Source of the DNA: Streptomyces collinus Tu 365 | GTDB taxonomy: Bacteria; Actinomycetota; Actinomycetes; Streptomycetales; Streptomycetaceae | DNA length: 64,000 nt | NCBI RefSeq assembly: GCF_000444875.1 | Contig: NC_021985.1 | Span: forward strand, 4,980,170-5,044,169 | Direction: 5' to 3' | Shown here: in pieces, positions 34,279 to 50,863 of the stretch | How positions within the stretch are numbered: the first letter of the stretch is position 1 | Layout: each line of letters begins with the position of its first letter | Position numbers and translations under genes: made by a program | The notes under the pieces: model-generated | Seen by the model: only the letters and a program-made list of their open reading frames with translations | Databases searched by the model: none | Told to the model about the DNA's origin: nothing

Positions 34279-34360
34279 GGCGGTGTGCCCGAGCGGCCAA
34301 AGGGAGCAGACTGTAAATCTGCCGGCTCAGCCTTCCCAGGTTCGAATCCTGGCGCCGCCA
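34279..34360 (+). tRNA. tRNA-Tyr (GTA)
   Basis: An 82-base class II tRNA. The acceptor stem GGCGGTG (34279-34285) pairs with CGCCGCC (34353-34359), with one G-T pair. The anticodon GTA is at 34313-34315 in the loop CTGTAAA. There is a long variable arm and the T-arm CCAGGTTCGAATCCTGG. CCA is not encoded. Its 3' two-thirds from 34308 is duplicated exactly at 50807-50863, so it is the attachment site of the integrated element and is kept functional. Confidence 0.96.
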
Positions 34361-34364
34361 CACG
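34308..34364. repeat. attL core (57-bp direct repeat, left copy)
   Basis: Identical to 50807-50863, starting AGACTGTAAATCTGCCGG and ending CGCCACACG. It runs from the anticodon stem to 4 bases past the tRNA 3' end, so integration rebuilds an intact tRNA-Tyr. Confidence 0.93.
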
Positions 34365-34366
34365 AC

Positions 34367-34412
34367 CGAAAGGGTCTGTGACCAGCAGCAATGCTGATCG
34401 CAGGCCCTTTCG
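34367..34412 (+). terminator. Element-borne tRNA terminator
   Basis: CGAAAGGGTCTGTG (34367-34380) pairs with 34399-34412. An inner ACCAGCA/TGCTGAT stem completes a near-full 46-base hairpin that starts just outside the att core, so the element itself supplies it. Confidence 0.6.
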
Positions 34413-34490
34413 TCGTTGACGGGGTCAGTGTGGGTGCTATGTGCGCTTTTTCCCAGTCTGTCTCACTTGGATTCGCGTGCTGACCAGCCC

Positions 34491-34512
34491 GTGTGGGGCA
34501 GGCGTGGGGCAG
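34491..34512. repeat. Tandem 11-bp repeats, candidate integrase arm sites
   Basis: GTGTGGGGCAG and GCGTGGGGCAG stand in tandem between the att core and the integrase stop codon. A matching pair (GTGTCCCCCAG GTGTCCCCCGG at 51000-51021) occupies the same position in the neighbouring element remnant, which supports a role as arm-type Int binding sites. Confidence 0.5.
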
Positions 34513-34524
34513 CTTCGCGTACCT

Positions 34525-35892
34525 CTACCCGCCGTTCTTCAGCGCTCGCTCGATCCGGGCGTTCGCCGTGGCGGCGCCGCCGTCCAGGCACTTGGCGTAC
34601 ACCCGGAACAGTACGGCCACGCTGTGGCCGGCGCGCGCGGCCACTTCCTGCGGCTCCACCCCGGAACTGAGCCATGTGGACACGGCAGCATGCCGAAGGT
34701 CATAAGGACGCTTGGCCAACTGCGACGCGCGCTGAGCGGGCGTGAGGGCCCGTGCGCGAGCTTCTGCCCACACCTCGCCATATCCGGTGTCCTGGATGAG
34801 CCCACCGCGCTGGGTGCGGAACAGGCGTCCGTCTGGGGCGACGCCGTACGCGATGACGTGCCACCGCAGCAGGCTCACGAGGTCGGGCGGGATCGGCACC
34901 GGGCGGACCGCCTTCCGAGGCCGGTGCTTGAGCCCTCGCCGGTCGTGTGCTTCGCCGCTGTCGGTCCATGCTGATCCTGAGCGCGGACGGGTCTCCCGTA
35001 GCCATAGGGTCCCCCACCCTCGGCGGGGGAGGTCGCAGTCCTGTAGGCGGAGGCCGATGACTTCCGCCGGCCGTGCTGCCGCGTAGTACATGCACCCGAA
35101 GAATGCGACCAGGCGGCGCCCGCGGGCGCTCTGTGTGCGCACGGCGTCGAGCAGTGCGAGAGCCTGCCGGGGATCTGGGACCGAGGCCGGGTCCAGTTCC
35201 TCCGCAACCTGCTCCGGAGCCTTCCACTGCACTTGTGGCAGAGGGTTATCCGTCAGTCGGCCGGCGTCGACGGCGTAGCCGAGCGCGTTGTGAAAGATGG
35301 CCCGCTTCCGGCGGATGGTCGACGCGGACGCCGTGGTGCCGTCCAATTTCATGGTCAGGGCGTCCAGGGCGGCGCGCACCTGCATGCGGTCCGCCAGTGC
35401 AGAGGTCGGCAGGGATTTCCGCTCGAACCATGCCAGCACGGCGGCTACCTCGTCCGGCGGTTCTTCGTTCCGGCGGCTCACGTTGAATGCCCAACTGTAG
35501 AGAGCCGTCCGCACCGTCCTAGCGTCGGCCATGCCCTTGCTGTCCTTGACGAGCGCCGGCGTCACCGTGGCCATGGCTTCCGCGAGTGTCCGGCGCGTCG
35601 AGCCGGGGGAGTGCTGCCACTTCATCTCGATGTACTCGCGGGCGTGTTGATACCAACTCACGTCGTTGCGCTGCCGCAGCTCGGAGAGTGGTACGCCGGT
35701 GAACTCGTCGAAGGGCTCGCCGGCGTGTGCCGCGCGCAGAAGTTCAGCGCGTCGCCCCTCTGCCAGCGTCTTTGTGCGGAACGTCTGAGAGTGCGGAGTC
35801 TCGCCTGTCTTCCAGCGCAGCTCTGCGGAGGTTTGGCCCCGGTCTTTCCTCTGCCGTACTGACCAGATGCGAACGTCGTATGTCTTCCCCAT
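34525..35892 (-). CDS. Tyrosine recombinase/integrase of the AICE
   Basis: 455 residues, start ATG 35892 with AGGAAGG upstream. An N-terminal arm-binding domain and a SAM-like core-binding domain (about 75-185) precede the catalytic domain: Arg274 in YAAARPAEVIGLRL, Arg400 in RPYDLRHAAVS, His423 in ARAGHSVAV and the nucleophile Tyr432 in LFRVYAKCL. The first His of the HxxR box is Tyr, as is common in actinobacterial integrases. It recombines the tRNA-Tyr attB with attP. It lies next to attL, oriented toward it. Confidence 0.93.
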   Translation of the reverse strand: MGKTYDVRIWSVRQRKDRGQTSAELRWKTGETPHSQTFRTKTLAEGRRAELLRAAHAGEPFDEFTGVPLSELRQRNDVSWYQHAREYIEMKWQHSPGSTRRTLAEAMATVTPALVKDSKGMADARTVRTALYSWAFNVSRRNEEPPDEVAAVLAWFERKSLPTSALADRMQVRAALDALTMKLDGTTASASTIRRKRAIFHNALGYAVDAGRLTDNPLPQVQWKAPEQVAEELDPASVPDPRQALALLDAVRTQSARGRRLVAFFGCMYYAAARPAEVIGLRLQDCDLPRRGWGTLWLRETRPRSGSAWTDSGEAHDRRGLKHRPRKAVRPVPIPPDLVSLLRWHVIAYGVAPDGRLFRTQRGGLIQDTGYGEVWAEARARALTPAQRASQLAKRPYDLRHAAVSTWLSSGVEPQEVAARAGHSVAVLFRVYAKCLDGGAATANARIERALKNGG

Positions 35893-35964
35893 CGGGGGCC
35901 TTCCTGTGAAAGGGGGCCCGGTATGCGCCGGGCCCCCTTGGGCGATGCCGGTGAGCTGGTGGAG

Positions 35965-36153
35965 TCAGTAGGCGGGCGAATCCAGGCGGTTGAGCCAGTC
36001 GTCGAGGTCGGTGCGTCGCACCCGCAGGTGGCCGTTGGGCAGCTTCACCAGCCGCGGCCCCTGGCCACGCGCGCGCATGCGGTAGAAGGCGGCGCGGCTC
36101 ATGCTGATCTCTTGGAGGACTTCGGGGAGTTTGAGCATCTTGGTGCTGGCCAA
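35965..36153 (-). CDS. Excisionase-like helix-turn-helix protein
   Basis: About 62 residues. KMLKLPEVLQEISMSRAAFYRMRARGQGPRLVKLPNGHLRVRRTDLDDWLNRL is a MerR/Xis-type winged helix (HTH_17). The start is probably TTG 36153, since AAGGAG lies 8 bases upstream; ATG 36192 and ATG 36138 are alternatives. It lies directly upstream of int on the same strand and would bend attachment DNA for excision. The GTAGCGG repeat cluster begins just upstream of it. Confidence 0.8.
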   Translation of the reverse strand: MASTKMLKLPEVLQEISMSRAAFYRMRARGQGPRLVKLPNGHLRVRRTDLDDWLNRLDSPAY

Positions 36154-36202
36154 GGCGGTGACTCCTTCTTGGGGTGAGGCGTCCGGCGGCACTCTCAGAA
36201 GT

Positions 36203-36404
36203 CCGCTACTTCCGCTACCGCCGCTACCTCGCAGGTCACGGGCCTGTTGGAGGTAGCGGGAAGGGGTAGCGGTAGCGGACGGGTAGCGGTGCGGTAGCGG
36301 CTTCGGATGCCCGTTACCGCTACCGCGTTATCACTGGTCAAGCCGTGTTTTCGGTGCCAGGTAGCGGAGGTAGCGGACTTTCCGGGGGTGGGGGGCAGTA
36401 GCGG
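36203..36404. repeat. GTAGCGG iteron cluster, candidate replication origin
   Basis: Twelve exact copies of GTAGCGG or its complement CCGCTAC plus one variant (CCGTTAC) lie in about 200 bases. Minus-sense copies begin at 36203, 36212, 36221 (9-base spacing) and 36317. Plus-sense copies begin at 36253, 36266, 36272, 36283, 36294, 36361, 36370 and 36398. The array spans the gap between xis and the DUF3631 gene and runs into the 3' end of that gene, where it encodes a Pro-rich tail. This is the layout of an iteron origin or a Xis binding array. Confidence 0.7.
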
Positions 36405-37483
36405 GCCCACGCGTCGTGCAGATCAGCGGCGTAGTAGCCCTTGAGGACGCTTCCGGCGGTCTTGATGTTGCGGGAGGCGATGGGCTCGTTGTCGGCCGTC
36501 ATGTACTCGGCGAGCATCCGGGACAGGCGCCGGTTGTCGAGCGGCTTGCCGTGCAGGTCGGCCCAGGGTGCGTCGTCCAGGGCGTTGAGCCGGTCCAGGA
36601 TGGCGACGGTGGGCAGGCGGTCGATGCCGACCATGACGTGATCGCGTAGATCGGCAAGCAGCCGAATCCCCATGCTGCCCTTGTCGTTGGCCTTGGACGC
36701 CGTCACCAGGGTCACGCATGCTTCCCGAGCCCGCTCGGGCCAAGCACCGCCGGCGGCGTCCGCGACCGCGAGCAGGGGTTCCCATACGTCCGCCGGTCGG
36801 TCGGTGACACCTTCGGGCATGTCCGGCCAGGCGTCCACCACTCGCGCACGTGCCTGTTCGGCCCACTGCGCCAGCCGCTCACGGAGCTTGTGCCCCTGCG
36901 CCTCGTGGATGCGAGCCCGGAACGGTTCCACGCGTTCGTTGCGGGCCCGGCGGCGCATGCGGATGACAACGGAGCGGGTCAGGATCGTGTCGGGCAGGGA
37001 GCCGAGCCCGGCGACCGCGACCGCGCAGTACGAGGGGAACGCCTGCACAGTCTGGTTGCCGCCATCGCCGATACACCGGTAGGTGACCCCGGAGCGGCGG
37101 TGTCCGGCGTTGAGGAACCCGCGCAGTTCCTCGTTGTCCCCCGCCTTCGGCCCGAAGATCGTGTCGATCTCATCGAACAGGATCGTCGGCCGGCCGTTCG
37201 CCCCCGACACCGCGCGGAACAGAGCGGCGGCGGACGCGTTCACGGCCGTCATGGACTGCGGCACCAGCGTTTCCACGATCTCCAGGGCTCGCGACTTGCC
37301 CGATCCCGGCTCGGGGGACAGGAAGGCCAGGCGGGGCGTGGAGTCGAAGCAGTCGAGCAGGTGGGCGTGTGCGTCCCACAGGGCGACGGCGACGTAGGCG
37401 GCCTCGGTGGGGAAGACGTTGAACCGTCGGTGGAAGGCTTCCACCTCGTCCAGCAGCGCGGCCCCGTCCATGGTGGGGGTCAT
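36338..37483 (-). CDS. DUF3631 / AAA-like replication protein
   Basis: 381 residues, start ATG 37483 with AGGGAGGGC upstream. A P-loop is visible in LAFLSPEPGSGKSRALEIVETL and Walker B in PTILFDEIDTIFGPKAGDNEELRGFLNAGH; the DUF3631 domain follows (about 190-370). Such proteins pair with Prim-Pol proteins in AICEs and phages as helicase-like partners. Here the two flank one small gene, with ATGA overlaps throughout. The C-terminus PPPPESPLPPLPG is written by the overlapping iterons. Confidence 0.85.
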   Translation of the reverse strand: MTPTMDGAALLDEVEAFHRRFNVFPTEAAYVAVALWDAHAHLLDCFDSTPRLAFLSPEPGSGKSRALEIVETLVPQSMTAVNASAAALFRAVSGANGRPTILFDEIDTIFGPKAGDNEELRGFLNAGHRRSGVTYRCIGDGGNQTVQAFPSYCAVAVAGLGSLPDTILTRSVVIRMRRRARNERVEPFRARIHEAQGHKLRERLAQWAEQARARVVDAWPDMPEGVTDRPADVWEPLLAVADAAGGAWPERAREACVTLVTASKANDKGSMGIRLLADLRDHVMVGIDRLPTVAILDRLNALDDAPWADLHGKPLDNRRLSRMLAEYMTADNEPIASRNIKTAGSVLKGYYAADLHDAWARYCPPPPESPLPPLPGTENTA

Positions 37484-37911
37484 GCGGCGGCCCTCCCTTC
37501 GGTGGATACGGCGGGCATTCCGGTGCAGGCGGATCGGTGGGCGTCGTACTCGGTGACCAGCGCGGTCACGGCCTGGGGGCCGGTGGCGGTGCTGGTCTGT
37601 CCGCAGGGGCAGGTGTAGGCGGCGGTGGGAGTGTCGCCGGGGCGGGTGGACCAACGGGCGCCGTCCCAGTGGTGGCGGTAGACCGGTGGGGCGTAGATCC
37701 GGATACCGGGCCGCTCCGGGGTGGGGTCGGCCGTGCCGTGCCGGGCTTCGTCGGTCTGGAACCGCTCAGAGCGAAGTGCAGTGACGACGCCCTTGCGGGC
37801 GGCGCCTGTCGGCTCGCCCACGGCTGGCCCGGGCCCGGCTTTCTCGGCGCCGTGCCGGCCGGTGGGTGTCGGGGCTTGGCCTTCCAAGCGGGGAGTGGCG
37901 GGGGCGCTCAT
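37480..37911 (-). CDS. Small AICE protein with Cys pair
   Basis: 143 residues, start ATG 37911, overlapping both neighbours by ATGA. The N-terminal half is Pro/Ala/Gly-rich and basic. The C-terminal half has YRHHWDGARWSTRPGDTPTAAYTCPCGQTSTATG and ends in EYDAHRSACTG, so TCPC...HRSAC could bind zinc. It is not a recognised family. Its placement between Prim-Pol and the DUF3631 helicase suggests an accessory replication role. Confidence 0.65.
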   Translation of the reverse strand: MSAPATPRLEGQAPTPTGRHGAEKAGPGPAVGEPTGAARKGVVTALRSERFQTDEARHGTADPTPERPGIRIYAPPVYRHHWDGARWSTRPGDTPTAAYTCPCGQTSTATGPQAVTALVTEYDAHRSACTGMPAVSTEGRAAA

Positions 37912-38810
37912 GCCGCCTGCCTGGGTCGGGCTTTGCGGATGGAGCCGTCCAGGGCGCTGCGGATGGTGGTGCGGCACTCGGCCGCGGTGAGTCCCACCGC
38001 CTCGCCCGCCCCTTGGAAGGCGTCCTCAACCGTCTGCCGGGGGAGGTCGCCCCACGCGACGAATCGCCCCACCTTGAAGGCGCATCGGTTTAGCACGGTG
38101 TTGCGCAAGCCTTCCGGGGCGGCGGTCACCACCGCGCACTCGGCTTCCAGCGCGGCCAGTGCCGCCCGGCTGCCGCCCACCGCTGGCAGCCGCAGCGACC
38201 CCTCAGGGCGCGCGGGCGCGGGCTCCAGGATGCTCAGCAGCCACGCGGGCAGAGGGGCGGCCAGAGAGGCGCACAGCGCCTCGTACCATCCGGCGGCGGT
38301 GACGCTACCGGCGGCGACGACGTATCCGCCCCACGCGCGGGTGTCGACCGAATCCGCCACGGTGCCCGCCGTGTTGCCCAGCCGGGCGCCCGGCGGGCAG
38401 GTGAAGTAGAGATGCTCTCCACCGCTCGCGGTCCGCACCCGGTAGGTGTTGGGGACGGCGTGTCCGGCGCGCTCGCAGAGCGCTGCAAAGGTGGTCGCGC
38501 CGCAAGGCGCGTCCGAACTGTTCTTGTCCTTGGGCACGTCCAGGTCGATGACGACCAGCCCGGACGGGCCGGTGGCGATGCCGACGTTGAACGGCGCCCG
38601 CGACCATGCGGCGCGGATGCGGGCGGGGTCGGTGGTGGCGCGCTGCTCCCACTTCACGTGCCCGGTCGTGCACGGGTCGGTGCGGGTGCAGGTCTTCTCT
38701 CCGTGCAGGGCGGGCGGCTTGCTGCCGGGCCTGCACGGGAAGACGTGCCAGCCGCGCTCGGCGGCGGTTAAGGCTGCACGGAGCAGCGCGGTTTGGGCGT
38801 CATGGGTCAT
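37908..38810 (-). CDS. Bifunctional DNA primase/polymerase (Prim-Pol)
   Basis: 300 residues, start ATG 38810. The Prim-Pol fold is in the first 190 residues: GWHVFPCRPGSKPP at the start, VVIDLDVPK as the catalytic DxD and ASGGEHLYF as the following His motif. The C-terminal part (FKVGRFVAWGDLPRQTVEDAFQGAG...) is a PriCT-like helical domain. This is one of the three recognised AICE replication types, besides RepSA and RepAM. It should initiate element replication at a nearby origin, plausibly the iterons at 36.2-36.4 kb. Confidence 0.88.
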   Translation of the reverse strand: MTHDAQTALLRAALTAAERGWHVFPCRPGSKPPALHGEKTCTRTDPCTTGHVKWEQRATTDPARIRAAWSRAPFNVGIATGPSGLVVIDLDVPKDKNSSDAPCGATTFAALCERAGHAVPNTYRVRTASGGEHLYFTCPPGARLGNTAGTVADSVDTRAWGGYVVAAGSVTAAGWYEALCASLAAPLPAWLLSILEPAPARPEGSLRLPAVGGSRAALAALEAECAVVTAAPEGLRNTVLNRCAFKVGRFVAWGDLPRQTVEDAFQGAGEAVGLTAAECRTTIRSALDGSIRKARPRQAA

Positions 38811-38899
38811 GCTGGATGTCTCCAGTTCTCTTGATGGTGCTGGGTGACAAGGGCGGCCCCGCGGCTTTGGCGAGACGATGGGGGCCGCCCTTGGCGTAG

Positions 38900-39364
38900 C
38901 TAGCTGTGGAAGTGGTTGCGCTTGAAGACCGCCCGGCGGATGTGGACCGTGGTGCCGCCCTTGTGGCCGTTGGAGCTGAAGACCTGGACGGCGATCCAGC
39001 CGCCGAAGAGGACGGCGGCGAGGATGATGAGCTGGGTGATCAGCGCCGTGAGTGCGGTGATGAACGTGGTGAGCAGGAGCAGTCCGCCGCACACGGCGAG
39101 GAACCCGACACCCCCGAGGGCGACGTTCACCGCCGTCCGGGACACGGGTGGCTTCGCCGCGAGCGGTTCGGGCTGCAGGGCGTTGACGGCGTAGCCGGTG
39201 ACGATCCGCCCGTTGGGCAGGACGATGCTCGCCACCGCCGGCACGGCGCCCGGTTGCATGAGGACGACCGGCGCCGGTACGACAGCGGCCGGGGTGATGG
39301 GGGCGGGCTGATGGACCGCGACATCCCGCAGCGCGGACGCCGGGAGGTGCTGTTCGGGGTACAT
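38900..39364 (-). CDS. SpdD-like transfer-associated membrane protein
   Basis: 154 residues, start ATG 39364. A soluble Pro/Val-rich N-terminal half is followed by two strongly hydrophobic segments (VALGGVGFLAVCGGLLLLTTFITAL and LITQLIILAAVLFGGWIAVQVF) and a basic tail. Size, topology and position between Prim-Pol and traB fit Spd proteins, which help plasmid or AICE DNA spread between mycelial compartments. Assignment rests on context and topology. Confidence 0.6.
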   Translation of the reverse strand: MYPEQHLPASALRDVAVHQPAPITPAAVVPAPVVLMQPGAVPAVASIVLPNGRIVTGYAVNALQPEPLAAKPPVSRTAVNVALGGVGFLAVCGGLLLLTTFITALTALITQLIILAAVLFGGWIAVQVFSSNGHKGGTTVHIRRAVFKRNHFHS

Positions 39365-39388
39365 GTGGAATCCCTTCCGGTGCTGGGT

Positions 39389-39545
39389 CAGGGAGGCGGC
39401 GGCACCCCCTTGGGGATGCCGTGTGGAGGGGGTTTCGGGCCGCTGAGCTGGGGTGCCTCCCTGCCTCCCTGGGCGATCATTTGCACTGGTCACGGCCAGG
39501 GAGGCGGGTCAGGGAGGGGGTGAGGGAGTTCTCCCTGCCTCCCTG
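39389..39545. repeat. CAGGGAGG octamer cluster, candidate clt/TRS
   Basis: Exact CAGGGAGG or CCTCCCTG octamers begin at 39389, 39456, 39464 (in direct tandem), 39497, 39510 and 39538. Near copies lie at 39521, 39530 and 39560. All are in the noncoding 203 bases after the traB stop, where clt loci with 8-bp TraB recognition repeats lie in Streptomyces plasmids. Confidence 0.65.
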
Positions 39546-39567
39546 ATCCGGGCGGGGCGGCTCCCTG

Positions 39568-41685
39568 CTATCCGGCGTCGGAAGCGGAACCGTCGGTGTC
39601 ACGATGGGCAAGGGCGCGGGCGATGTGGTCGCGGCCGACGACCATGCGGCCGTCGGACTTGTACGGCTCGGCGCCGGTGCCGTCCAGGACGCGGGTGAGG
39701 TCGACGGGCGACCAGGTGCCGTAGGCGTCCGGGTTCAGTACGGAGAGCCGCTTGAGCACGTCCTGGGTGCGCAGCCGCGGGGCGTCGCCGATGACGGCGG
39801 CGATGTCGGCGAGCGGGTCACGCTCCTCGTCGTCGCGTTCGATGGCGTGCAGGGTGGTGACGCCGTCGCGCAGGGCCTTGGCCCGGTCGGTGATGGCTTC
39901 GGCGGTGGCGTCGTCGATGAAGTGCGTGCGCACGGTGATGGAGGACTGGCCGGCCGGGATGGTGATGCCGTCGGAGGCGACGACCAGGGTGCCCCGGTCC
40001 AGCCCTGGGCGCAGCAGGTTCGGGGCGGCGCCGCCGTCCACGGCCTTGTCGCCCAGCGCCATGCGGGCCTGCGATTCGGTGCCGAGTGCGAGGGAGGCGC
40101 GGGTGTGGGCGCCCTCGCGGACCAGCTTGGGCAGGTTCTCGTTGGTGGGGTCCTGGGTGCCCTGCCACATCAGGACGTTGACGGCGCGGCCCTGGTTGTG
40201 GATTTTGCGGACGGCCATGAAGTACCGGGAGTTGGCCTTGGCGCCGCCGTAGGGGCGCTTGTCCTCGTCCTTGGCCGGGCACATGAACGCGACCTGTGCC
40301 TCATCGACCAGCACGATCAGCGGCGGGAACTGGGTGCCGGGCGGGGCCTGGATGCGGCGGTTCATCTCGTCCACCGCGCCTTCGACCATCTCGGTCACCT
40401 GGATCACGTGCTCATCGGTGGGGCCCTGGATGAGGGTGAGGGCGAGGCCGTCGAACATCTTCCAGTCGCCCACGCCCTTGAGGTCACCCATGAGGAACTG
40501 CACCGACTTGTCCAGGGACAGCCACAGCGCCAGGGACCGCAGGGCCACGGTCTTGCCCTGGTTCGACAGGCCGGTGATGAGCAGGTGCCGCTGATACAGG
40601 CTCAAGTTCGCGGCGTCGCCGCGCAGGTCCTGACCCCACGGCGCTTTGCCCTTGGCGTAGTCGGCGGTCATCGTGTCGTCGGTGGCCAGCGGGGACGGGC
40701 CGATCGGCTCGTCCAGCGCCCCGGAGTCGGCCACCCACAGCCGCACTGTGCGGGCGGCGGTCGGGATGGTGATGAACACCTCGTGCTCGTGCCGGGACAG
40801 GTTCTCAGCGAGCTTCCGACGCCGGTTCTGCACCTCGATCGTGGACACCCCCGACGGGAGGGTGACGTCGACTTCCACGCCGCATCCGGCGATGACGATC
40901 GGGGACAGCATCGACGCACCCGCGTCGCCCATCTCCTGAATCGCCTTACGCAGGGCAGGTACCCCCAGGTCGCGTAGGGCCTTGACCACGATCGACGGGG
41001 TGATCGGCTCGCCCTCACCGTTGCGGACGCCTGCCGGCAGTGCCCACTGGGGTGCGGCCTGTTGGTGGGCCCCGACGGACCACAGGGCGAGCAGGGCGAG
41101 GAACGGGCCGACCGTCAGGGCCGGTCCCCACACCACTTGCACGATGGTGATCAGCAGGTTGATGAACTTGATGACCGCCATGAGCGGAGTGACGACCTCG
41201 GTGGCGTCCTTGGTGGCGATGGCCATCGCGACGCCGAGCAGGACCAGTCCACCGACGCCCATACCGGCGCTCACGGCCGCGCCCTTGGCCGCGTCCAGCG
41301 GCGAGTGCAGCAGGTCCATGCGGCGGCGGTGGCGGGCGTCGCGGAATCGCTGCCCCCGCTCCTCCCACTCGGCAGCCGCCTCGAAGTTCCCCGCGGCTTC
41401 AGCGGCGCGGAGCATGCGCTCGTACCGGGCGGCGGTGCGACCGTCCCACGCCCGGCGGCCCACGATCCGCGCGCCCCCGAGGACGTACAGGCTGTGCCGG
41501 GCGACCGTGCGCGCGGCCGTCCTGGTGGCCTCGTGGGTGACGGCCGTGCGTACGGCGCGTCCGGACCGGAGCCACAGGGGGACCGGCGGTGCGGCCGGCG
41601 GGTCGGGGACCACGGTCAGTGTGGTCACGGGCGGGTCGGGCTCGGGGTTGGTGTCTTTGTGCAGGTGGACGACGTTGCCGCTCAT
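39568..41685 (-). CDS. traB: FtsK/SpoIIIE-type DNA translocase TraB
   Basis: 705 residues. Two or more membrane helices at about 136-158 and 170-202 are followed by a hexameric motor: Walker A GLSNQGKT (372-379) and Walker B LIVLVDEAQ (456-464). The C-terminal 80 residues (about 620-700, RLRTQDVLKRL...RMVVGRDHIARALA) look like the winged helix that reads 8-bp transfer repeats. Members move double-stranded DNA between hyphae as a single protein. Start ATG 41685. Confidence 0.9.
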   Translation of the reverse strand: MSGNVVHLHKDTNPEPDPPVTTLTVVPDPPAAPPVPLWLRSGRAVRTAVTHEATRTAARTVARHSLYVLGGARIVGRRAWDGRTAARYERMLRAAEAAGNFEAAAEWEERGQRFRDARHRRRMDLLHSPLDAAKGAAVSAGMGVGGLVLLGVAMAIATKDATEVVTPLMAVIKFINLLITIVQVVWGPALTVGPFLALLALWSVGAHQQAAPQWALPAGVRNGEGEPITPSIVVKALRDLGVPALRKAIQEMGDAGASMLSPIVIAGCGVEVDVTLPSGVSTIEVQNRRRKLAENLSRHEHEVFITIPTAARTVRLWVADSGALDEPIGPSPLATDDTMTADYAKGKAPWGQDLRGDAANLSLYQRHLLITGLSNQGKTVALRSLALWLSLDKSVQFLMGDLKGVGDWKMFDGLALTLIQGPTDEHVIQVTEMVEGAVDEMNRRIQAPPGTQFPPLIVLVDEAQVAFMCPAKDEDKRPYGGAKANSRYFMAVRKIHNQGRAVNVLMWQGTQDPTNENLPKLVREGAHTRASLALGTESQARMALGDKAVDGGAAPNLLRPGLDRGTLVVASDGITIPAGQSSITVRTHFIDDATAEAITDRAKALRDGVTTLHAIERDDEERDPLADIAAVIGDAPRLRTQDVLKRLSVLNPDAYGTWSPVDLTRVLDGTGAEPYKSDGRMVVGRDHIARALAHRDTDGSASDAG

Positions 41686-41776
41686 AACGGCAGGCTCCTG
41701 ACTGCCCCGGATCGGGGCGAAGCGAGGGGGGAGGGCGCGGTGAGGGGGCCGGGCCGCGTGGGCCCGGCCGGGCTGG

Positions 41777-42094
41777 TCACCACCAGCGGGAGGACTTCTG
41801 CGCGGCGCGGGCGGTGGCGGCCTCGTTGACGATCCGCTGCCGCTCGGTGTGGAGCGCGGCGATCTCCGCGACGAGCCGGGTCTCGGCCGACTGCCACGCG
41901 GTGTCCAACTGCCGTTCGGCGCGGGCGGGGCTGTTGCCCCTCACGATCCGGTACGAGCCGCCGGCGAGGGCACCGAGGACGGCGCGGCGCTCGCGGCCGT
42001 CCAGCGGCCACATCTCGCGGTTGCGGACGGCTTCGAGCTTGCGGTTGGTCTGCTGGATGGCCTTGTCCAGGCGGCGGGTGTCGGGTTTGCCCAT
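41777..42094 (-). CDS. Small basic coiled-coil AICE protein
   Basis: 105 residues, ATG 42094 with GAGGAG 8 bases upstream; GTG 42103 would place the ribosome site too close. It is highly charged and helical (LDKAIQQTNRKLEAVRNREMW and AETRLVAEIAALHTERQRIVNEAATARAAQ), probably coiled-coil. It is not a recognised family. It lies in the spd/tra operon upstream of traB. Confidence 0.65.
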   Translation of the reverse strand: MGKPDTRRLDKAIQQTNRKLEAVRNREMWPLDGRERRAVLGALAGGSYRIVRGNSPARAERQLDTAWQSAETRLVAEIAALHTERQRIVNEAATARAAQKSSRWW

Positions 42095-42095
42095 G

Positions 42096-42437
42096 TCAGG
42101 CACTCCTCAGGGAGGGTTCGGGGAAGGCGCAGGGGGTGCACATGCCGAGCGATGCGGGGATGACGTAGCCCGCGTCACGGCGGCAGGAGGGGCAGAGGCG
42201 GCGGGCGCGGTTGGCCTTGGCCAGCGCCGCTCGCCGTGCGGGCGTCATGGGCCGGACGGGCTTGGCCAGGTCGACGCGGTACAGGTAGGCGACCAGCGGG
42301 CCCCGCCGTCGGCGCGGCCGTTCGAGCTGTGCCGCCACGTCCTGGCCGCCCGGCCGCAGGCCGCGTGCGCGGAGTTGGCGGCGGGTGGCGTAGCCGTCCG
42401 GGGCGAGGCGCCACCGGAAGACCGGCAGTGCCCCCAT
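42096..42437 (-). CDS. RRQRL motif-containing zinc-binding protein
   Basis: 113 residues. ATRRQLRARGLRPGGQ near residue 17 is the RRQ-L motif and CPSCRRDAGYVIPASLGMCTPC is a four-cysteine zinc knuckle, the two marks of this AICE/plasmid family. Its start codon overlaps the stop of the SpdB-like gene (TGATG). The role is not established; it is typical of tra/spd operons. Confidence 0.82.
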   Translation of the reverse strand: MGALPVFRWRLAPDGYATRRQLRARGLRPGGQDVAAQLERPRRRRGPLVAYLYRVDLAKPVRPMTPARRAALAKANRARRLCPSCRRDAGYVIPASLGMCTPCAFPEPSLRSA

Positions 42438-43570
42438 CAGCCGGCCCGCTCGGCGAGCAGCGCGTCACGCAGCTTGCGCGCGTTGGCCGGGGAGGTGCGC
42501 AGTTCCCGGCGGATGCCCTCGCCGGTGATCTGCGCGTCCGGCCAGTCGGCGGTCATGGTGCGGGCCTCGGTCAGGAGTTGTTCGGGGGTGCGTCGCGTCC
42601 GGGGTGCCTTGGCGGCGTCCGGGACCCGGTACGTCGCCCGACGCTGCCGGGTCGACTCGGCAGCCACTGATCGGCGCACGGTCGGATGCGTAGGGGTCGA
42701 CTCGATCGGGGCAGCAAGCGCGGGGATCGGCTTGAGCGGCAGGCTGGACTTGCCCGCGTCCGCCGGGACCGGGTCGGGTACCGGGAGGCGAGTCAGGGTG
42801 ATCGTGACCGGGGTCGATTCCGGCTGGTCAGCCGTAGACCGAATCATCTCGGTCTTTGTCGATTCCTCCGCATTCGTGCTCGCGGTGGTCGCCGGACCGA
42901 TCAGGCCGACCGACGGCAGGGACGGCGGGTCGGTCGGGGTGGTGAACATGCCTGCCAGCGCGGCATCCGCACCTGCCGTGACGCGCTCGCACTGCACATC
43001 GAGCAGCCGGGTGCCTAGGGTGTGGTCGCCGGTGCCGACCCTGCGGGCCAGACGCCACGACTTGCGCTCGGACCACTTCTTAACGCGGTCGCTGGGGTGG
43101 TTGGCGGCCACCGCCCGGTAATAGGCCAGTTGCCGTACGACGGCCGCCGCGCGGGCCTCGGCTTCGGCGTCGTGGCCATCGGTGTGGACGACGATCCGCC
43201 GGGCAAGGAACGCCATGCCCTCGGCCGAGACGCACATGCCCATGGGGGTCACGGCGTAGATCACGGTACGGCCGGCGTCCGGGCCGACCATCGCGGCCAT
43301 GACCGAGGCGGCGGCGGGCAGCGCCCACAAGCCGAGTCGGACGAGGCGGGGTGAGGACTGTCCCAGCATGGTCAGGCCGAGCAGGACCAGGCCGAGCACG
43401 GCGGTGGCGCCCTCGCCGGCGGCGACCGCACCGAGCGCGGTGCCGGTGCCGTAGGCGTGGCCGATATTGCTGAACGTGCCGTAGGCGCCGATGCCGCCGA
43501 CGGCGGCCATGATGACGAATGCGACCCCGAGAACGATGCGCTGCGGGGTGGTCAGTTCCTTGCGATTCAT
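42437..43570 (-). CDS. SpdB-like DUF2637 membrane protein with C-terminal HTH
   Basis: 377 residues, ATG 43570. Four helices in the first 125 residues (VLGVAFVIMAAVGGIGAYGTF, AVAAGEGATAVLGLVLLGLTML, LGLWALPAAASVMAAMVG, VTPMGMCVSAEGMAFLARRIV) are followed by a long Thr/Pro-rich linker. The end is a basic domain (LLTEARTMTADWPDAQITGEGIRRELRTSPANARKLRDALLAERAG) with a helix-turn-helix look. DUF2637/SpdB proteins act in intramycelial plasmid spread and may bind DNA and TraB. Confidence 0.8.
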   Translation of the reverse strand: MNRKELTTPQRIVLGVAFVIMAAVGGIGAYGTFSNIGHAYGTGTALGAVAAGEGATAVLGLVLLGLTMLGQSSPRLVRLGLWALPAAASVMAAMVGPDAGRTVIYAVTPMGMCVSAEGMAFLARRIVVHTDGHDAEAEARAAAVVRQLAYYRAVAANHPSDRVKKWSERKSWRLARRVGTGDHTLGTRLLDVQCERVTAGADAALAGMFTTPTDPPSLPSVGLIGPATTASTNAEESTKTEMIRSTADQPESTPVTITLTRLPVPDPVPADAGKSSLPLKPIPALAAPIESTPTHPTVRRSVAAESTRQRRATYRVPDAAKAPRTRRTPEQLLTEARTMTADWPDAQITGEGIRRELRTSPANARKLRDALLAERAG

Positions 43571-43839
43571 TACGCGGCACCGCCCGACAGGCGCGTGCCG
43601 GCCGCACGGTTGACCAGCGCGACCCGCGCGGCGAGAGCCCGGCGGCGGGCGCGACGGATGCGGCGGGCGTCCAGCTCGGTCGGGGTGCGGTCCAGGGTGA
43701 CGATGTGCGCGTCCAGCAGGTCGACGTCCGCCAGGATGACGGGCATCTCGCGCTCGATCGCGTCCAGCTCCGCGTCCGTCGGCTCCATGAAGTCGGCGAA
43801 CGCGGTAACAGCGTCCTGAACTGTGACGATGTGCTCCAT
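43570..43839 (-). CDS. DUF6284-like small protein
   Basis: 89 residues, ATG 43839. The first half is acidic (MEPTDAELDAIEREMPVILADVDLLDAHI) and the second is Arg-rich (DARRIRRARRRALAARVALVNR). This matches the small DUF6284 proteins found as first gene of AICE spd operons. Its stop overlaps the start region of the SpdB-like gene by one base. Function unknown. Confidence 0.72.
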   Translation of the reverse strand: MEHIVTVQDAVTAFADFMEPTDAELDAIEREMPVILADVDLLDAHIVTLDRTPTELDARRIRRARRRALAARVALVNRAAGTRLSGGAA

Positions 43840-43972
43840 TGGGTCGTGTTCCTTTCGAGGTGGAACGGCCCGAACAGCACCCCTCGGAGTTGCCCCTCCG
43901 GGGGGTGCGCGCCGGTGATCGGAGAAAGCCGCGCGTTTCACGCGGCCCGGCCACTGAGCAGCGGCCGAAGTG

Positions 43973-44014
43973 CCCCGGACCGGACTCGAACCGGTCGGGC
44001 TGCGTACGGGGCAC
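43973..44014 (-). other. tRNA-like 3' fragment (T-arm plus acceptor-like stem)
   Basis: On the minus strand GACCGGTTCGAGTCCGGTC forms a 6-bp T-stem with the canonical TTCGAGT loop. It is enclosed by TGCCCCG and CGGGGCA. It resembles the 3' end of a tRNA-Leu-class gene, but no matching 5' acceptor strand or anticodon arm was found. It may be a fossil tRNA or a leader structure. Confidence 0.35.
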
Positions 44015-44187
44015 GCCGGTCTTCTCCGCCTTGTTTCCGACCCCTTCGGGCAGGCGGACCACGGGTTACCAGCAGTTCCCTGTGTGAGGTTGTCAAGGAC
44101 CCAGCAGCTCAGGGCCCCACATGGAAGCGAGCTATCCCGAACCGCACGGCTTGAAGGCAGCCCTAAGAAAGCCCCTCCCGGCCCGCT

Positions 44188-44258
44188 GTCCTAGGACTGC
44201 GAGCGACCTGAGGAGACCATGGCACGCAGTCCTAGGACTGTCAACAGTCCTAGGACTG
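44188..44258. promoter_or_regulatory. Triple palindromic operator CAGTCCTAGGACTG
   Basis: Perfect 14-base palindromes lie at 44227-44240 and 44245-44258 (18 bases centre to centre). A 10-base core copy lies at 44188-44197. All are directly upstream of the GntR gene and between it and the spd operon, as expected for KorSA-type autoregulation and repression of transfer genes. Confidence 0.75.
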
Positions 44259-44291
44259 TGCTTGACTGAATCGCGTCGAGAGGAGTTCTGC

Positions 44292-45086
44292 GTGGCACCG
44301 AAGTGGCGCGACCTGGCGGACAGGTTCGCGGAGCAGATCAAGAGCGGTGAGTATCCGCCGGGCGCCCAGTTGCCCCAGATCAGAGACCTAGTCGAGGCTG
44401 GGGAAGGCTCCAAGGAGACCGTCCACAAGGCATACAAGGCGTTGGAGGCTGAAGGTCTCGTAACCTCGACGCGCGGACACGGCACCGTGGTGCGGTCGCG
44501 TACGCCGCTCAAGAGGCTCGGCATTGCCCGATACGACAAGGCAAAGTGGCGCGACGGCGAGGAAGTCGCGTTCATCGCTGACCGCGTCGCATCGGGTCGC
44601 GCATACAAGCGCGACGAGCAGACGCAGACTGTGAGCCGCGTCCAGGCGGACAGCCTTGTAGCGGAGGGGCTCGGCGTCCCAGTTGGCTCCGAGGTGTACG
44701 CACGAGCACGTCTCGTGAAAGAGGGGACGCAGCCAACTCATACCCTGACCAGCTACTACAAACCAGAGCATGTAGAGGGGACGCGCATTGTTGACCCCAC
44801 TCCAGGCCCTGCCGGCCGTGGTGGCGGGTACCGGGTCCTCTATGACGCCGGATACGAGATCGACCACATGAGAGAGGCCCTGTTCGCCCGCATCCCCACG
44901 GCTGACGAGGTGCAGCTCCTGCAGCTCCCCGCCGGTGAACCTGTAGTCGAGCTGCACAGGACCACTTACATGGCAGACGGCACGGTGGTCGAGTTCGCGG
45001 TGGGCGTCCACTCGGCTTCTCGATTCGCATGGGAGTACGACTTCAAGATTCCGGACTCAGCGCACGACGGGAAGGGGCAGGAATGA
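44292..45086 (+). CDS. GntR family repressor (KorSA-like)
   Basis: 264 residues, GTG 44292 with AGGAG 6 bases upstream. The N-terminal winged helix is WRDLADRFAEQIKSGEYPPGAQLPQIRDLVEAGEGSKETVHKAYKALEAEGLVTSTRGHGTVV. The C-terminal UTRA ligand domain is about 85-250 (EVYARARLVKEGTQP; VVELHRTTYMADGTVVEFAVGVH). In pSAM2-like elements KorSA keeps excision, replication and transfer genes silent. Three palindromes precede it. It overlaps the next gene by 4 bases. Confidence 0.88.
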   Translation: MAPKWRDLADRFAEQIKSGEYPPGAQLPQIRDLVEAGEGSKETVHKAYKALEAEGLVTSTRGHGTVVRSRTPLKRLGIARYDKAKWRDGEEVAFIADRVASGRAYKRDEQTQTVSRVQADSLVAEGLGVPVGSEVYARARLVKEGTQPTHTLTSYYKPEHVEGTRIVDPTPGPAGRGGGYRVLYDAGYEIDHMREALFARIPTADEVQLLQLPAGEPVVELHRTTYMADGTVVEFAVGVHSASRFAWEYDFKIPDSAHDGKGQE

Positions 45087-45757
45087 TCTCGACACAGACG
45101 TGGGAGGATGCCCGGCTTCTGTGGAACTACCACCGTATGCATCACGATCTGCGGCCCTGTTCGGTAGCCGTCGGTCTGGGCAGTCACGATCTCGGTGTAG
45201 CTGATGTGACGGCGGAGCTGTATCACCAGGGCATGGCGCCGGTCATCGTGTTCACAGGGGCCACCAGCCCCACGACCCGGGCGCGCATGCCACGCGGTGA
45301 AGCTGTCCAGTACCGCGAGCGAGTGCTGGAGCTCGGCGTGCCCGATTCGGCCGTAATCTTGGAGCCGCGAGCGACGAACACGGGTGAGAACATCGAGTTC
45401 ACCAAAGCAGTTCTGGCGGACGCTGGCGTCGAGGTGACCTCTGTCCTCCTAGTGAGCAAGCCCTACGAAGAGCGGCGTTCGTACGCCATGATGCGGAAGC
45501 TCTGGGCTGAGGTCGATGTGGTGTGCGCGTCCACGCCGATGGAGCTAAAGGAGTACGCCGACTCCATTGGGGACGCTCGCATGGTCATCGACATGATCGT
45601 GGGCGCCCTGCAAAGGGTGCTTGTCTTTCCGGGCTGGGACTTGGCCATCGAACAGGCTGTGCCGGACACCGTCGTGGCTGCTTATGAGCGCCTGTGTACC
45701 GAGGGCTTCACGAGCCGACTCCTGTCCGGTGAGGTCGCCTCTCGTCCTAACGTGTGA
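45083..45757 (+). CDS. YdcF/DUF218 family protein
   Basis: 224 residues, ATG 45083 overlapping the GntR stop. VAVGLGSHD, VIVFTGATSPTTRARMPRGEAVQYRERVLELGVPDSAVILEPRATNTGENIEF and VLLVSKPYEERRSYAMM form the DUF218 Rossmann-like core. No membrane helix is present, so this is the soluble YdcF branch. In pSAM2-like AICEs a regulator-linked gene pra or a Nudix gene sits here; YdcF in this position may act on a nucleotide-type signal read by the repressor's UTRA domain. That last point is inference. Confidence 0.83.
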   Translation: MISTQTWEDARLLWNYHRMHHDLRPCSVAVGLGSHDLGVADVTAELYHQGMAPVIVFTGATSPTTRARMPRGEAVQYRERVLELGVPDSAVILEPRATNTGENIEFTKAVLADAGVEVTSVLLVSKPYEERRSYAMMRKLWAEVDVVCASTPMELKEYADSIGDARMVIDMIVGALQRVLVFPGWDLAIEQAVPDTVVAAYERLCTEGFTSRLLSGEVASRPNV

Positions 45758-45759
45758 CG

Positions 45760-45795
45760 GGTTGGCGGGTCCACTACTACATGGACCCGCCAACC
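45760..45795. terminator. Bidirectional hairpin terminator
   Basis: GGTTGGCGGGTCCA at 45760-45773 pairs with 45782-45795 around an 8-base loop. It lies 2 bases after the YdcF stop and about 60 bases past the microORF below the PIN-like gene. Confidence 0.75.
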
Positions 45796-45852
45796 GGAGT
45801 GGTGCGCCAGCGATGCTCCGCATGCGGGCTAGTAGGTAAGACCGCGCGGCCA

Positions 45853-45906
45853 TCACTCAGAAGCCGCCAGGTACAGGCGCATGAGCGAGTCGTAATCAAT
45901 GATCAT
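45853..45906 (-). CDS. 17-residue micro-ORF coupled to the PIN-like gene
   Basis: MIIDYDSLMRLYLAASE, starting by ATGA overlap with the PIN-like stop codon (stop 45903-45905, ATG 45904-45906) and ending TGA at 45853. It could be a translation-coupled micropeptide or simply the leftover end of a lost gene. There is no ribosome site beyond coupling. Confidence 0.25.
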   Translation of the reverse strand: MIIDYDSLMRLYLAASE

Positions 45907-47378
45907 ATCGGCGAATTGTGATCACCGTCATTACTGCCGTCGATGAGCGGTTGGTGGTAACTGGGCATCCGCTGCTCTAGCTGTGCAATTTCTTCGTTCA
46001 GGACGTCGCGTTCCATCGCTAGCTGCTGGCGCCGCCCAAGGAGCGAAATGGGTGCATTGGCACCCTGTTCGCGAATTTTTTCATCCAGTTCGGCCAGATG
46101 CGTATTCATTGCATCGAGTCGGCCACGGGTGTAGGCAAGCTTGTGCTGAGACTCCTTAGAAGGGCGAGGTGTCCCGACCTGAGTGGATTTCTCCCTTCTG
46201 TCAGTAGAGGAATTCAAATCGCCCAGGAGTGCTCTAAGATCTTCCGTCATTTCCCAATCCCGCCGCGAGATATTGAGTGCTACTGACCCGTCGGGCAATT
46301 CTTCGATGCTCCTCTCGATGAGGTACAGGAGCTGATCTGCCCGATTCGCGATTGTGCGTGCGGCTCGGACTCGGCTTGGATTGCGTCCGGGTGAGATCGT
46401 TTCCTCATGAAAATGATCCCTTATCTTCAAGAGGTCAACCATCAGGGCGTTGAATTCGTCCGGGTGTAGGTGCAAGGTTTTGGTGTTGGAACTACCCTCT
46501 TGCGCCTGGGCGACGGTGGACTCGCTGACGATCGCCCCTAGCTCAGACTTAGCGACCTTCAGAAACGTTCCCAAATCGGTTAGCAAGAAATCCTGGCCAC
46601 AGCGCTCCTTAAACTCAGAAATCAGCTTAGGGTGGGGACCAATCGTTAGTCCGGCCTCGCTGTAAACCCAATCGTCCTTAGTGTCATTCGTTACTAAAAT
46701 CACTGGCATTTCGCGGAGTTTGGCCTCGCGCAATACTTGCTCCCAGACGAAATAATCACCGTGGGCATTGTCTGCCTTGCCTGAGTCTCGATATCCCGGC
46801 GGGATCCTATCGCCTGCTCGCGTGCTGTAATTCTCTAGGAACTCCTTTTCTTCTTCGTCGGCGAACGGCGCTCCGACCTTCTGATCGAAGATATCAGCCA
46901 ATGACTGCAGGATTGGGTCATCGGTGATGACCTTAACCAAATCCAAATCAAACGCGTCACCATGGCGTTTGATTTCGTCTATTGCCATATCGAATGCCTT
47001 GTTTAGGGGATCGATCAACGCCCTCTTTTCCTCTGGAGACATGGAGCGCCGCTTGGTGAAGGTGTTGATCTCTTGGATCGCTTTGTTCCTTGATTCATTC
47101 AACACCTTGGGGACGGTCGTGTAGAGGGCGATGTGCTCCTTTATGGCATCAACTCGACGAGAATAATACTCCTTCACCACCTGATGGGAGACCCACAAGC
47201 GATCTTCCAGTTTTGTCAGAGCCTGCAAAAGCTCGTCACGCGCTTGAGGGGTGAATCTATATAGATTCAGCAGGACGTTAGTGTCGAGCGTTACGAGATA
47301 CTCGGTAACTCCTTTCTTGTAGTCTTCCGTTGACCTTCTCCACATTCCTTCGAACCCTGTCAGGAAGGAAGATTCCAT
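45903..47378 (-). CDS. PIN-like domain protein (possible defence cargo)
   Basis: 491 residues, ATG 47378. VTLDTNVLLNLYRF (first Asp of a PIN nuclease), WVSHQVVKEYYSRR (conserved Glu), GKADNAHGDYFVWEQVL and PVILVTNDTKDDWVY (later Asp residues) give the complete acidic set of the PIN_8/DUF4935 type. The C-terminal 200 residues are helical, with a coiled coil (LAYTRGRLDAMNTHLAELDEKIREQG...LAMERDVLNEEIAQLEQRM). Base composition is clearly less GC-rich than the neighbours, so it is a recent import. It is probably an RNA or DNA nuclease in anti-phage or abortive functions; this is inference. Confidence 0.75.
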   Translation of the reverse strand: MESSFLTGFEGMWRRSTEDYKKGVTEYLVTLDTNVLLNLYRFTPQARDELLQALTKLEDRLWVSHQVVKEYYSRRVDAIKEHIALYTTVPKVLNESRNKAIQEINTFTKRRSMSPEEKRALIDPLNKAFDMAIDEIKRHGDAFDLDLVKVITDDPILQSLADIFDQKVGAPFADEEEKEFLENYSTRAGDRIPPGYRDSGKADNAHGDYFVWEQVLREAKLREMPVILVTNDTKDDWVYSEAGLTIGPHPKLISEFKERCGQDFLLTDLGTFLKVAKSELGAIVSESTVAQAQEGSSNTKTLHLHPDEFNALMVDLLKIRDHFHEETISPGRNPSRVRAARTIANRADQLLYLIERSIEELPDGSVALNISRRDWEMTEDLRALLGDLNSSTDRREKSTQVGTPRPSKESQHKLAYTRGRLDAMNTHLAELDEKIREQGANAPISLLGRRQQLAMERDVLNEEIAQLEQRMPSYHQPLIDGSNDGDHNSPI

Positions 47379-48028
47379 TTCGTGACCCCCAGGAAGGTGT
47401 GCCCGCGCATCGACAAGGTAGCTCAATGGGGGCAACTGCCGGGCCTACTTGCGAAATATCGGTAGGGTTAATTGTGTGGCCTGTAGCCAGCTTCGTCCGA
47501 GATGGGCGGCCTGGCCGCTCCCTCCAGTGCATTGGAGGTCAGGGGCAGGGCTTGGCTAATCCAAGGGCCTCCGAAGCCGCCTAACCAACTGCGTAAGGCC
47601 GGGGCAACTGACGCGTCCGTACACGCTGACGGCAGCCTTCGACGGCAACAGCGGCGGCGGTGCCGTATCAGATGAGACAGCCTCCCACCTCGCAGGGCGG
47701 CCGCCGACGCGACTCTGACACTGGCGCCAGGGCGTGCGGAAGGAACTAGAAAGGCGGCGGTCTTGCGCCAGCCGATGGCGGATCGTCCCGGCTTGGCATG
47801 AGGCCTCTGCCCCTGGTCTCAGTTGCAGTCCCAGTTGACACTAATTCCGAGGTGGTTCGTTTCTGTCCACGGCCGTCTGGCACGGCGCCTGACCAGCGGC
47901 GCAAGGCTCATGACAGATGTCCGTGGACACGTCCGGACCAAGATCTGACAACTCGTAATGCGTAGTCCTTGCGGACAGGTAGGAAGACCCATCCCTCCCC
48001 TGGTCTCCAGGGGAGGGCCTGCCGAGGA
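47379..48028. other. Intergenic region between PIN-like and restriction genes
   Basis: 650 bases with no convincing coding frame on either strand. The only clear structure is the hairpin CCCTCCCCTGG-TCT-CCAGGGGAGGG at 47993-48017, which would terminate the restriction gene transcript. Confidence 0.5.
47993..48017 (-). terminator. Hairpin terminator after restriction gene
   Basis: A perfect 11-bp stem with a 3-base loop, 12 bases downstream of the minus-strand stop at 48029. Confidence 0.7.
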
Positions 48029-49714: not shown

Positions 49715-50390
49715 GGTAGATCAGAGCCCTGACAACCGTACTCAGTTGGGCAGTGCCCAGAGACGCCGCGGGCAGACAGCGAGTAACCGCCGGCAGCAAT
49801 GACGATCGATGGCCGCACCCGCTTACCGACTATTTTCGGCCATGTATAAATGCTCATTCAAATGTGAATCAATGTGGATGAATCGGTCAAGCTATAGACA
49901 AAATTGTGCCTATAGGGAAATGTGCACTTCAATTTAACTGAAGTGGACATTCCTGACCGTGTCACTGCAGGTCAGCCCAGGCGTAGCACCCTTGTGGAAA
50001 ATACCGCTAGAAGCCCCTTTAGGCAACCTTTGCCTTCTTGATCGCTGGAATTCTCGGCGCCGGAACTTTTTTGCAGGTCAGCGGCCTACTGCGGGCGTCG
50101 GCTAGGTTTCTCTGCAACAGGAACGGCCGGACGGTTCGCACCCGTCCGGCCGCCTAGGTCGACGAGTTCGCACCTCGCTGACCTGCGGAAACTCGCACTC
50201 TGCATGAATGGAGATCCATGGGAAGGCTACCAGTCCGGGGTAAGTGGCCCGGGGCGCCAGTGAAAGACCGCTTCAAGGCGACGGATGTAGCTGCCTGGCC
50301 GCTCTTCAGCGTGGCGCAATGCGGGCGGTATCTCCTCTTGGGTGCGCGCACGCAGGGCGGCCGGTGTGACCGGGGGGTCGGGCGGGGGCG
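49715..50390. other. Right-end noncoding region of the AICE
   Basis: The stretch 49840-50060 is markedly AT-rich for this genome and includes CACTTCAATTTAACTGAAGTG, a 7-bp inverted repeat. Further right, GCAGGTCAGCG (50073-50083) is repeated inverted at 50176-50186, enclosing an 11-bp hairpin at 50124-50152. Short open frames are weak. It probably holds the promoter of the restriction gene and integration-related sites. Confidence 0.5.
50124..50152. terminator. Hairpin
   Basis: CGGCCGGACGG (50124-50134) pairs with CCGTCCGGCCG (50142-50152) around a 7-base loop. It is itself enclosed by an 11-bp inverted repeat at 50073 and 50176. Confidence 0.45.
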
Positions 50391-50687
50391 ATGCGGGTGA
50401 CGCAGTCCACGTGTGCATCCAGCTCCCTTGCATCACCGCCATCCCCTGGCACTTCGCCTTCGGCAGGTGGAGGCCAGGTCTCGTTCAGAACGATCTTTTG
50501 GACGGTGGTTGGCTTCACCGCAGCGTTCTGGCTGGCGTACGTAGTGCTCGTTGTTACGAGCCCTCACGGCGAACAAGTGAAGACCGCCATCGAGACCATG
50601 AAGGGCGCTGGCCTCTCTGGGCTTGGCACGATCTTCGGCCTTGCCGGCAGAGCCTTGACTGGTAGTCCCGGGAACGAGCAGAGCTAG
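50391..50687 (+). CDS. Small single-pass membrane protein
   Basis: 98 residues. TIFWTVVGFTAAFWLAYVVLVVT (about 34-56) is a good membrane helix, followed by ETMKGAGLSGLGTIFGLAGRAL. The first 30 residues are Ser/Pro-rich and the true start is uncertain. It is not a recognised family. It is the last gene before attR, so it is probably element-encoded. Confidence 0.5.
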   Translation: MRVTQSTCASSSLASPPSPGTSPSAGGGQVSFRTIFWTVVGFTAAFWLAYVVLVVTSPHGEQVKTAIETMKGAGLSGLGTIFGLAGRALTGSPGNEQS

Positions 50688-50806
50688 GCATGTTGCACCC
50701 GCGACCCACCAGGTGTGGCCGTCCCACCGACAGTCGCCATGGGGAGCTTGTGGGGTCGTCTAGTTGGGCACGCCAAAAACCCCAGCTCAACTGAGCTTTC
50801 GTACAG

Positions 50807-50863
50807 AGACTGTAAATCTGCCGGCTCAGCCTTCCCAGGTTCGAATCCTGGCGCCGCCACACG
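50807..50863. repeat. attR core (57-bp direct repeat, right copy)
   Basis: Exact copy of 34308-34364. Because an integrase remnant with the same spacing of terminator and arm repeats follows, this site also served as attL of an older element. Confidence 0.93.

Follow-up and report, generated by a model that had tools for sequence, protein, structure and literature searches.

Between traB and the next gene of an integrated element in Streptomyces collinus Tu 365 lies a noncoding stretch packed with copies of one octamer, which raises the question of whether this stretch is a clt locus and, if so, which part of TraB reads the octamer. A sequence-only reading of the region had proposed such a locus. 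The window referred to below is the whole stretch of DNA that was analysed (64,000 nucleotides, contig NC_021985.1, positions 4,980,170 to 5,044,169), and coordinates are those of the window unless a locus is named.

The integrated element

The element at 34308–50863 is an AICE. It has all the hallmarks of this class, namely an integrase, a Rep protein, an FtsK-like Tra protein and att direct repeats at a tRNA gene, and its features are as follows.

34308–34364, unstranded: attL, a 57-bp repeat overlapping tRNA-Tyr
34525–35892, minus strand: tyrosine integrase of the AICE (PF00589, slightly under the curated cut-off)
36200–36385, unstranded: second array, ten copies of CCGCTACC, probably iterons for replication
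36338–37483, minus strand: RepAM-type replication protein (DUF3631; PF12307), start uncertain
37908–38810, minus strand: Prim-Pol replication protein (PF09250)
38900–39364, minus strand: small membrane protein encoded downstream of the array, resembling a spread protein in its position
39366–39567, minus strand: probable clt array, comprising nine TRS sites and separating traB from the next gene
39568–41685, minus strand: traB, FtsK/SpoIIIE-family DNA translocase of 705 aa (PF01580, E=2e-7)
50807–50863, unstranded: attR, the other copy of the 57-bp repeat

The FtsK/SpoIIIE motor domain of TraB was matched by PF01580 with 30.9 bits (cut-off 24), and the small membrane protein encoded at 38900–39364 had no Pfam match. 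At the other end of the AICE there is a divergent gene for a GntR-UTRA regulator with CCTAGGAC palindromes upstream; the palindromes AGTCCTAGGACT at 44188–44258, also upstream of this gene, are likely its operators. A PIN_8-domain gene (45903–47378) is cargo close to the right end of the AICE.

Octamer array between traB and the downstream gene

The array is noncoding, since it falls between the end of traB (stop at 39568) and the next gene, which starts at 39364, and it thus has the location that had been claimed for it. Within these 202 bp the octamer CAGGGAGG occurs six times exactly, at 39389 (+), 39456 (-), 39464 (-), 39497 (+), 39510 (+) and 39538 (-). The three near copies are two with one mismatch, at 39530 (-, CAGGGAGA) and 39560 (-, CAGGGAGC), and one with two mismatches at 39522 (+, GAGGGAGT). 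These counts are those of the sequence-only reading, and so is the direct tandem that it described, as the copies at 39456 and 39464 lie head-to-tail with 8-bp spacing; the same phasing is found in the pair 39530/39538. The region is therefore a cluster of short direct and inverted repeats in noncoding DNA adjoining a tra gene, with the following sites in the direction of traB transcription.

39560–39567, minus strand: TRS site 1, CAGGGAGC, a consensus site in 86 Asp-class loci
39538–39545, minus strand: TRS site 2, CAGGGAGG, 8-bp phased with site 3
39530–39537, minus strand: TRS site 3, CAGGGAGA, forming the palindrome CAGGGAG-AA-CTCCCT with site 4
39522–39529, plus strand: TRS site 4, GAGGGAGT, degenerate in this array (consensus CAGGGAG)
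39510–39517, plus strand: TRS site 5, CAGGGAGG
39497–39504, plus strand: TRS site 6, CAGGGAGG
39485–39492, minus strand: central conserved element, TGACCAGT (TGAYSWGC in 141 of 163 relatives)
39464–39471, minus strand: TRS site 7, CAGGGAGG, in tandem with site 8
39456–39463, minus strand: TRS site 8, CAGGGAGG
39389–39396, plus strand: TRS site 9, CAGGGAGG

A frequency no higher than in random DNA had been named as an objection to the clt interpretation. When the 202 bp were shuffled 5000 times with dinucleotides preserved, the octamer appeared 0.085 times on average and at most twice, so that the six observed copies exceed every shuffle; for CAGGGAG, eight copies were observed against a mean of 0.19 and a maximum of 3. 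Over the whole window there are 13 octamers where 4.35 are expected. The host genome (8.38 Mb) contains the phased pair CAGGGAGGCAGGGAG at two places, both inside the array. Chromosomal clt-like octamer clusters in the host were considered and rejected, as there is no phased pair outside the array and loose pairs are near the control level.

Conservation among relatives

Relatives were collected as 80 loci from a genome scan with TraB, and further searches reached about 35% TraB identity, giving a comparison set of 163 distinct traB loci. The order and orientation of the nine sites are constant among relatives, while the flanking genes and spacers vary: a single site, a tandem in phase, a gap of 2 bp, three sites in inverse orientation, the TGAYSWGC spacer, another tandem in phase and, at the end, one more inverted site. 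Almost every related locus has this architecture 3' of traB, even where TraB identity is as low as about 35%, and the more distant loci keep the array with different genes downstream. Across the 86 loci of Asp type whose TraB is 70% or more identical, the TRS columns average 97.7% identity and the other columns 79.6%. The array is the sole repeat family that tracks TraB through the approximately 160 related loci. The TGAYSWGC element between TRS sites 6 and 7 spans the TRS classes and is found in arrays of TraB-less elements too.

The second array of the AICE consists of ten copies of CCGCTACC between an excisionase-like gene and the DUF3631 gene, and several interchangeable types of it exist among relatives. 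Among the 80 loci, whose TraB is mostly Asp-type, CCGCTACC, CTGCGTCA, CCGCTACA, GCGTCACC and others were found at this place, with at least six types inside a single TraB class. Since it varies while the TraB class stays constant, the second array follows something else, which makes the TRS array the stronger candidate for the clt. The second array most likely tracks the replication module and is probably an ori.

Octamer type and TraB residue 678

Of the first 79 loci, five have CGGGGAG in place of nearly all copies of the octamer core. A scan of all TraB columns in these first loci showed that residue 678 alone separates the switched loci perfectly: the switched loci have His, the CAGGGAG loci Asp (69) or Glu (2), and four loci with altered arrays Asn. 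In the enlarged set, position 678 ranks first of 705 columns, with an adjusted R2 of 0.74 overall and 0.95 in the close set. Where loci had been chosen by protein search regardless of their octamer, 93 of 93 scorable Asp loci are CAGGGAG-type and 7 of 7 His loci CGGGGAG-type, counts in which shared ancestry was considered only through the motor-domain tree. Two other Asp loci (L171 and L172) have CAGTGGAG-type repeats and the wing APLRDG.

The converse search, for the CGGGGAG core in DNA and blind to TraB, gave 16 places in 14 of 395 genomes, and all 15 loci with a detectable TraB have His678. The sixteenth place (L112) holds a TraB remnant that likewise reads KSHG, as does a metagenomic locus of a distant subfamily found with the CGGGGAG pattern (L243), which brings the total to 17 of 17. 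Loci with His678 are dispersed over the motor-domain tree (six changes among seven loci), so the wing and array would have moved as a cassette or evolved repeatedly. Other combinations are known from one or two examples each: TGAGGGAG repeats with the enlarged wing KTRSDDG (L165), AGGGGAG repeats with the wing KYQG (L169 and L170), and CAGTGAG repeats with the wing YMSNG. Arrays are mixed or variable where residue 678 is Asn, Gly or Ser. Statistical co-variation with residue 678 thus points to a repeat specific for its cognate TraB, and the suggestion that the octamer may define a new TraB specificity gains support from the sequence comparison, which yields an apparent specificity code composed of a new octamer family and a candidate specificity residue.

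The position of this residue was examined in an AlphaFold2 model of TraB residues 590–705, which adopts a winged helix (mean pLDDT 76, about 90 or more across most of the folded core).

39592–39816, minus strand: TraB C-terminal winged helix, approximately residues 624–698, putative TRS reader (AlphaFold2 model)
39652–39654, minus strand: codon of Asp678, predicted wing tip, the TraB position with the strongest association to octamer base 2

In the model, residue 678 occupies the turn that links the strands of the wing; it may contact octamer base 2. Alignment of the recognition helix had been suggested as the place to look for specificity; the associated residue sits at the predicted wing tip instead. 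A fold search with the model returned generic winged helices at low scores, with FtsK gamma absent among the matches listed, and a PDB sequence search with the C-terminal domain gave chance centrin matches only.

Arrays in elements without TraB

The CAGGGAG core pattern is present in 65 of 393 genomes, and among the approximately 50 loci fetched with it are eight that have full arrays and no traB nearby. In the 20-kb stretches around these eight, no open frame matched a TraB profile that does match the control loci. Five (L199, L200, L202, L204 and L205) are bounded by direct repeats of 20–44 bp at tRNA-Arg, tRNA-Ala or the apparent 3' end of a phosphoglycerate mutase gene, and have the features of IMEs, being integrated, with repeats and an integrase and no transfer protein of their own; the integrase of L202 is assigned only by similarity to that of L200. 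L203 has an 18-bp candidate repeat only, and no direct repeats were found for L198 and L201. The TraB-less elements contain integrases and, in various members, a DUF5906/D5_N protein, HNH proteins and GntR regulators. HK97-type capsid genes lie near the TRS array in two of them (L198:7394-8716 and L205:10839-12290, the latter element being bounded by 44-bp tRNA-Ala repeats), and a phage-satellite relationship is possible; named phage genomes gave no match to the array. The Rep of L200 was tried as a marker of array carriers and rejected, its relatives being mostly without GGGAG arrays.

Two of the elements carry complete CGGGGAG and CAGGGAG arrays side by side (L200:9829-10060 and L203:9838-10110). 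A TraB of the same family is encoded by three of the eight hosts, the other five now being without one; in the host of the dual-array L200 this TraB is of the His type and is accompanied by a CGGGGAG array. A complete CAGGGAGG array also lies away from traB on the Streptomyces cellulosae plasmid CP109096.1 (L244:7230-7422), whose TraB is unrelated; this record resembles a head-to-tail dimer. The TraB-less arrays, the dual arrays and the plasmid array are easiest explained by a portable signal for the TraB of another element, and judging by sequence the TraB-less carriers are apparently hitch-hiking mobilizable elements.

Proposed function and alternative explanations

Taken together, the sequence comparisons make it very likely that 39366–39567 is a clt locus that is read by the TraB winged helix, with base 2 set largely at the wing tip, and that is portable without traB. 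The array tracks TraB, co-varies with its winged helix and occurs as a stand-alone module in TraB-less elements, which supports this interpretation and is not expected of an operator, a terminator or a replication origin. From the same observations we infer the following route, including binding, pumping, the direct contact of residue 678 and the mobilisation of TraB-less elements. The C-terminal winged helix of TraB would bind the CAGGGAG-type octamers (TRS) of the array, TraB would assemble on the excised and replicated element, and its motor would pump double-stranded DNA into the recipient. The wing tip would largely set base-2 specificity, Asp678 going with CAGGGAG and His678 with CGGGGAG. 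Because the array would be recognised in cis, elements without traB can carry it, and a TraB of the right type resident in the same host would then move them. On balance it is probable that AICEs with a TraB of this large family form transfer-compatibility groups, set largely by the wing-tip residue and one TRS base, and that TraB-less parasitic elements, some with two arrays of different type, exploit these groups through clt arrays that match.

The alternative with the most weight, which we nevertheless regard as rather unlikely, keeps the array as clt and has base 2 read by another part of TraB, with residue 678 merely hitch-hiking. The traB 3' end adjoins the array, so recombination can shift both together, and columns 684, 687 and 672 in the C-terminal region are likewise associated with the switch. 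However, no column performs better than 678, which alone separates the first five switched loci perfectly, and His is found in widely differing C-terminal contexts, some of them in distant families. Moreover, L047 and L065 are 93% identical and differ at 678 and at few other C-terminal positions.

Readings of the array other than clt fare worse. That it forms an RNA element (hairpins, or a terminator or processing region between traB and the next gene) agrees with an RNA fold z of -3.0 and with the two orientations of the sites, by which many can pair, but seems very improbable, as no terminator-like site was found at the array and full arrays also occur in traB-less elements and on a plasmid away from its traB. 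Pairing would not predict co-variation with one TraB residue, and the octamer changes are pairing-neutral by symmetry, so the co-variation is no evidence for RNA. Clustered short repeats also look like iterons bound by Rep, and AICEs replicate once excised (PMC9513070); we nonetheless give a replication origin hardly any credence, since it is the different array at 36200–36385, with six or more types inside one TraB class, that adjoins the replication genes, and the TRS arrays stay constant with unrelated Reps (DUF5906 in L200) and change with TraB. The noncoding position upstream of the next gene would suit an operator of that gene or TraB autoregulation. This is the least probable reading: no promoter-like site was found at the array, the GntR regulator at the other end of the AICE has its own CCTAGGAC palindromes, the downstream gene varies among relatives while the array persists, and TraB-less elements have arrays beside other genes.

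Comparison with known systems

The clt interpretation would provide a clt motif family for many AICEs together with a candidate specificity residue; not even pSAM2, the archetypal AICE, has a described clt motif (PMC9513070). The natural Asp/His pairs suit swap experiments, and from a matching octamer it can be predicted which elements might transfer together. PMC9513070 raises the question of whether AICEs that share a host each rely on their own TraB pore or can hijack that of another, and the candidate elements described here seemingly live by such hijacking. In the literature searched, subscription journals aside, no description was found of the octamer family, the wing-tip association or clt-only elements. 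The locus thus appears to be of a known kind, the Streptomyces clt, with a new octamer family, and the clt-only elements appear to be undescribed.

Binding of clt repeats is established for pSVH1 TraB and, with other repeats, for pWTY27 (PMC3583192, PMC5133688, PMC12857230). In pSVH1, as Vogelmann et al. 2011 is cited in PMC3583192 and PMC5133688, TraB binds the 8-bp TRS GACCCGGA. Both systems have 8-bp repeats and a reader, putative in the present element, in the winged-helix domain at the C terminus of an FtsK-like TraB. They differ in that the carrier here is an AICE and in the octamer, CAGGGAGG being unrelated to GACCCGGA, a difference already noted in the sequence-only reading; the published pSVH1 reader is helix alpha3, whereas a wing residue is associated here. 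Elsewhere in the collection, approximately ten copies of (A)TCCGGGT, near the reverse complement of GACCCGGA, lie beside a DUF5906-type Rep (L226:4200-4380) and are possibly a clt for another TraB family. Like the present array, the pWTY27 clt adjoins the 3' end of tra and contains direct as well as inverted repeats; this locus of about 175 bp, which Tra binds in vitro, differs in repeat sequence (TGACACC/CCCGCCC) and architecture (PMC3583192). That of pJV1, to the extent that it is described in PMC3583192, also has multiple short repeats, nine CCGCACA[CG][CG], which are needed for transfer; the repeat sequence differs, and pJV1 is a plasmid where the present carrier is an AICE. The element itself resembles the AICEs with RepAM and Prim-Pol, which have an integrase, both replication proteins, an FtsK-like Tra and a tRNA site (PMC3218068). 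The TraB-less carriers, if correctly interpreted, would be mobilisable elements parasitic on double-strand conjugation. They resemble the IMEs that use T4SSs in depending on the transfer machine of another element, but known IMEs hijack single-strand T4SS transfer, whereas here the candidate TRS would be a signal for a double-strand TraB pump (PMC5704250).
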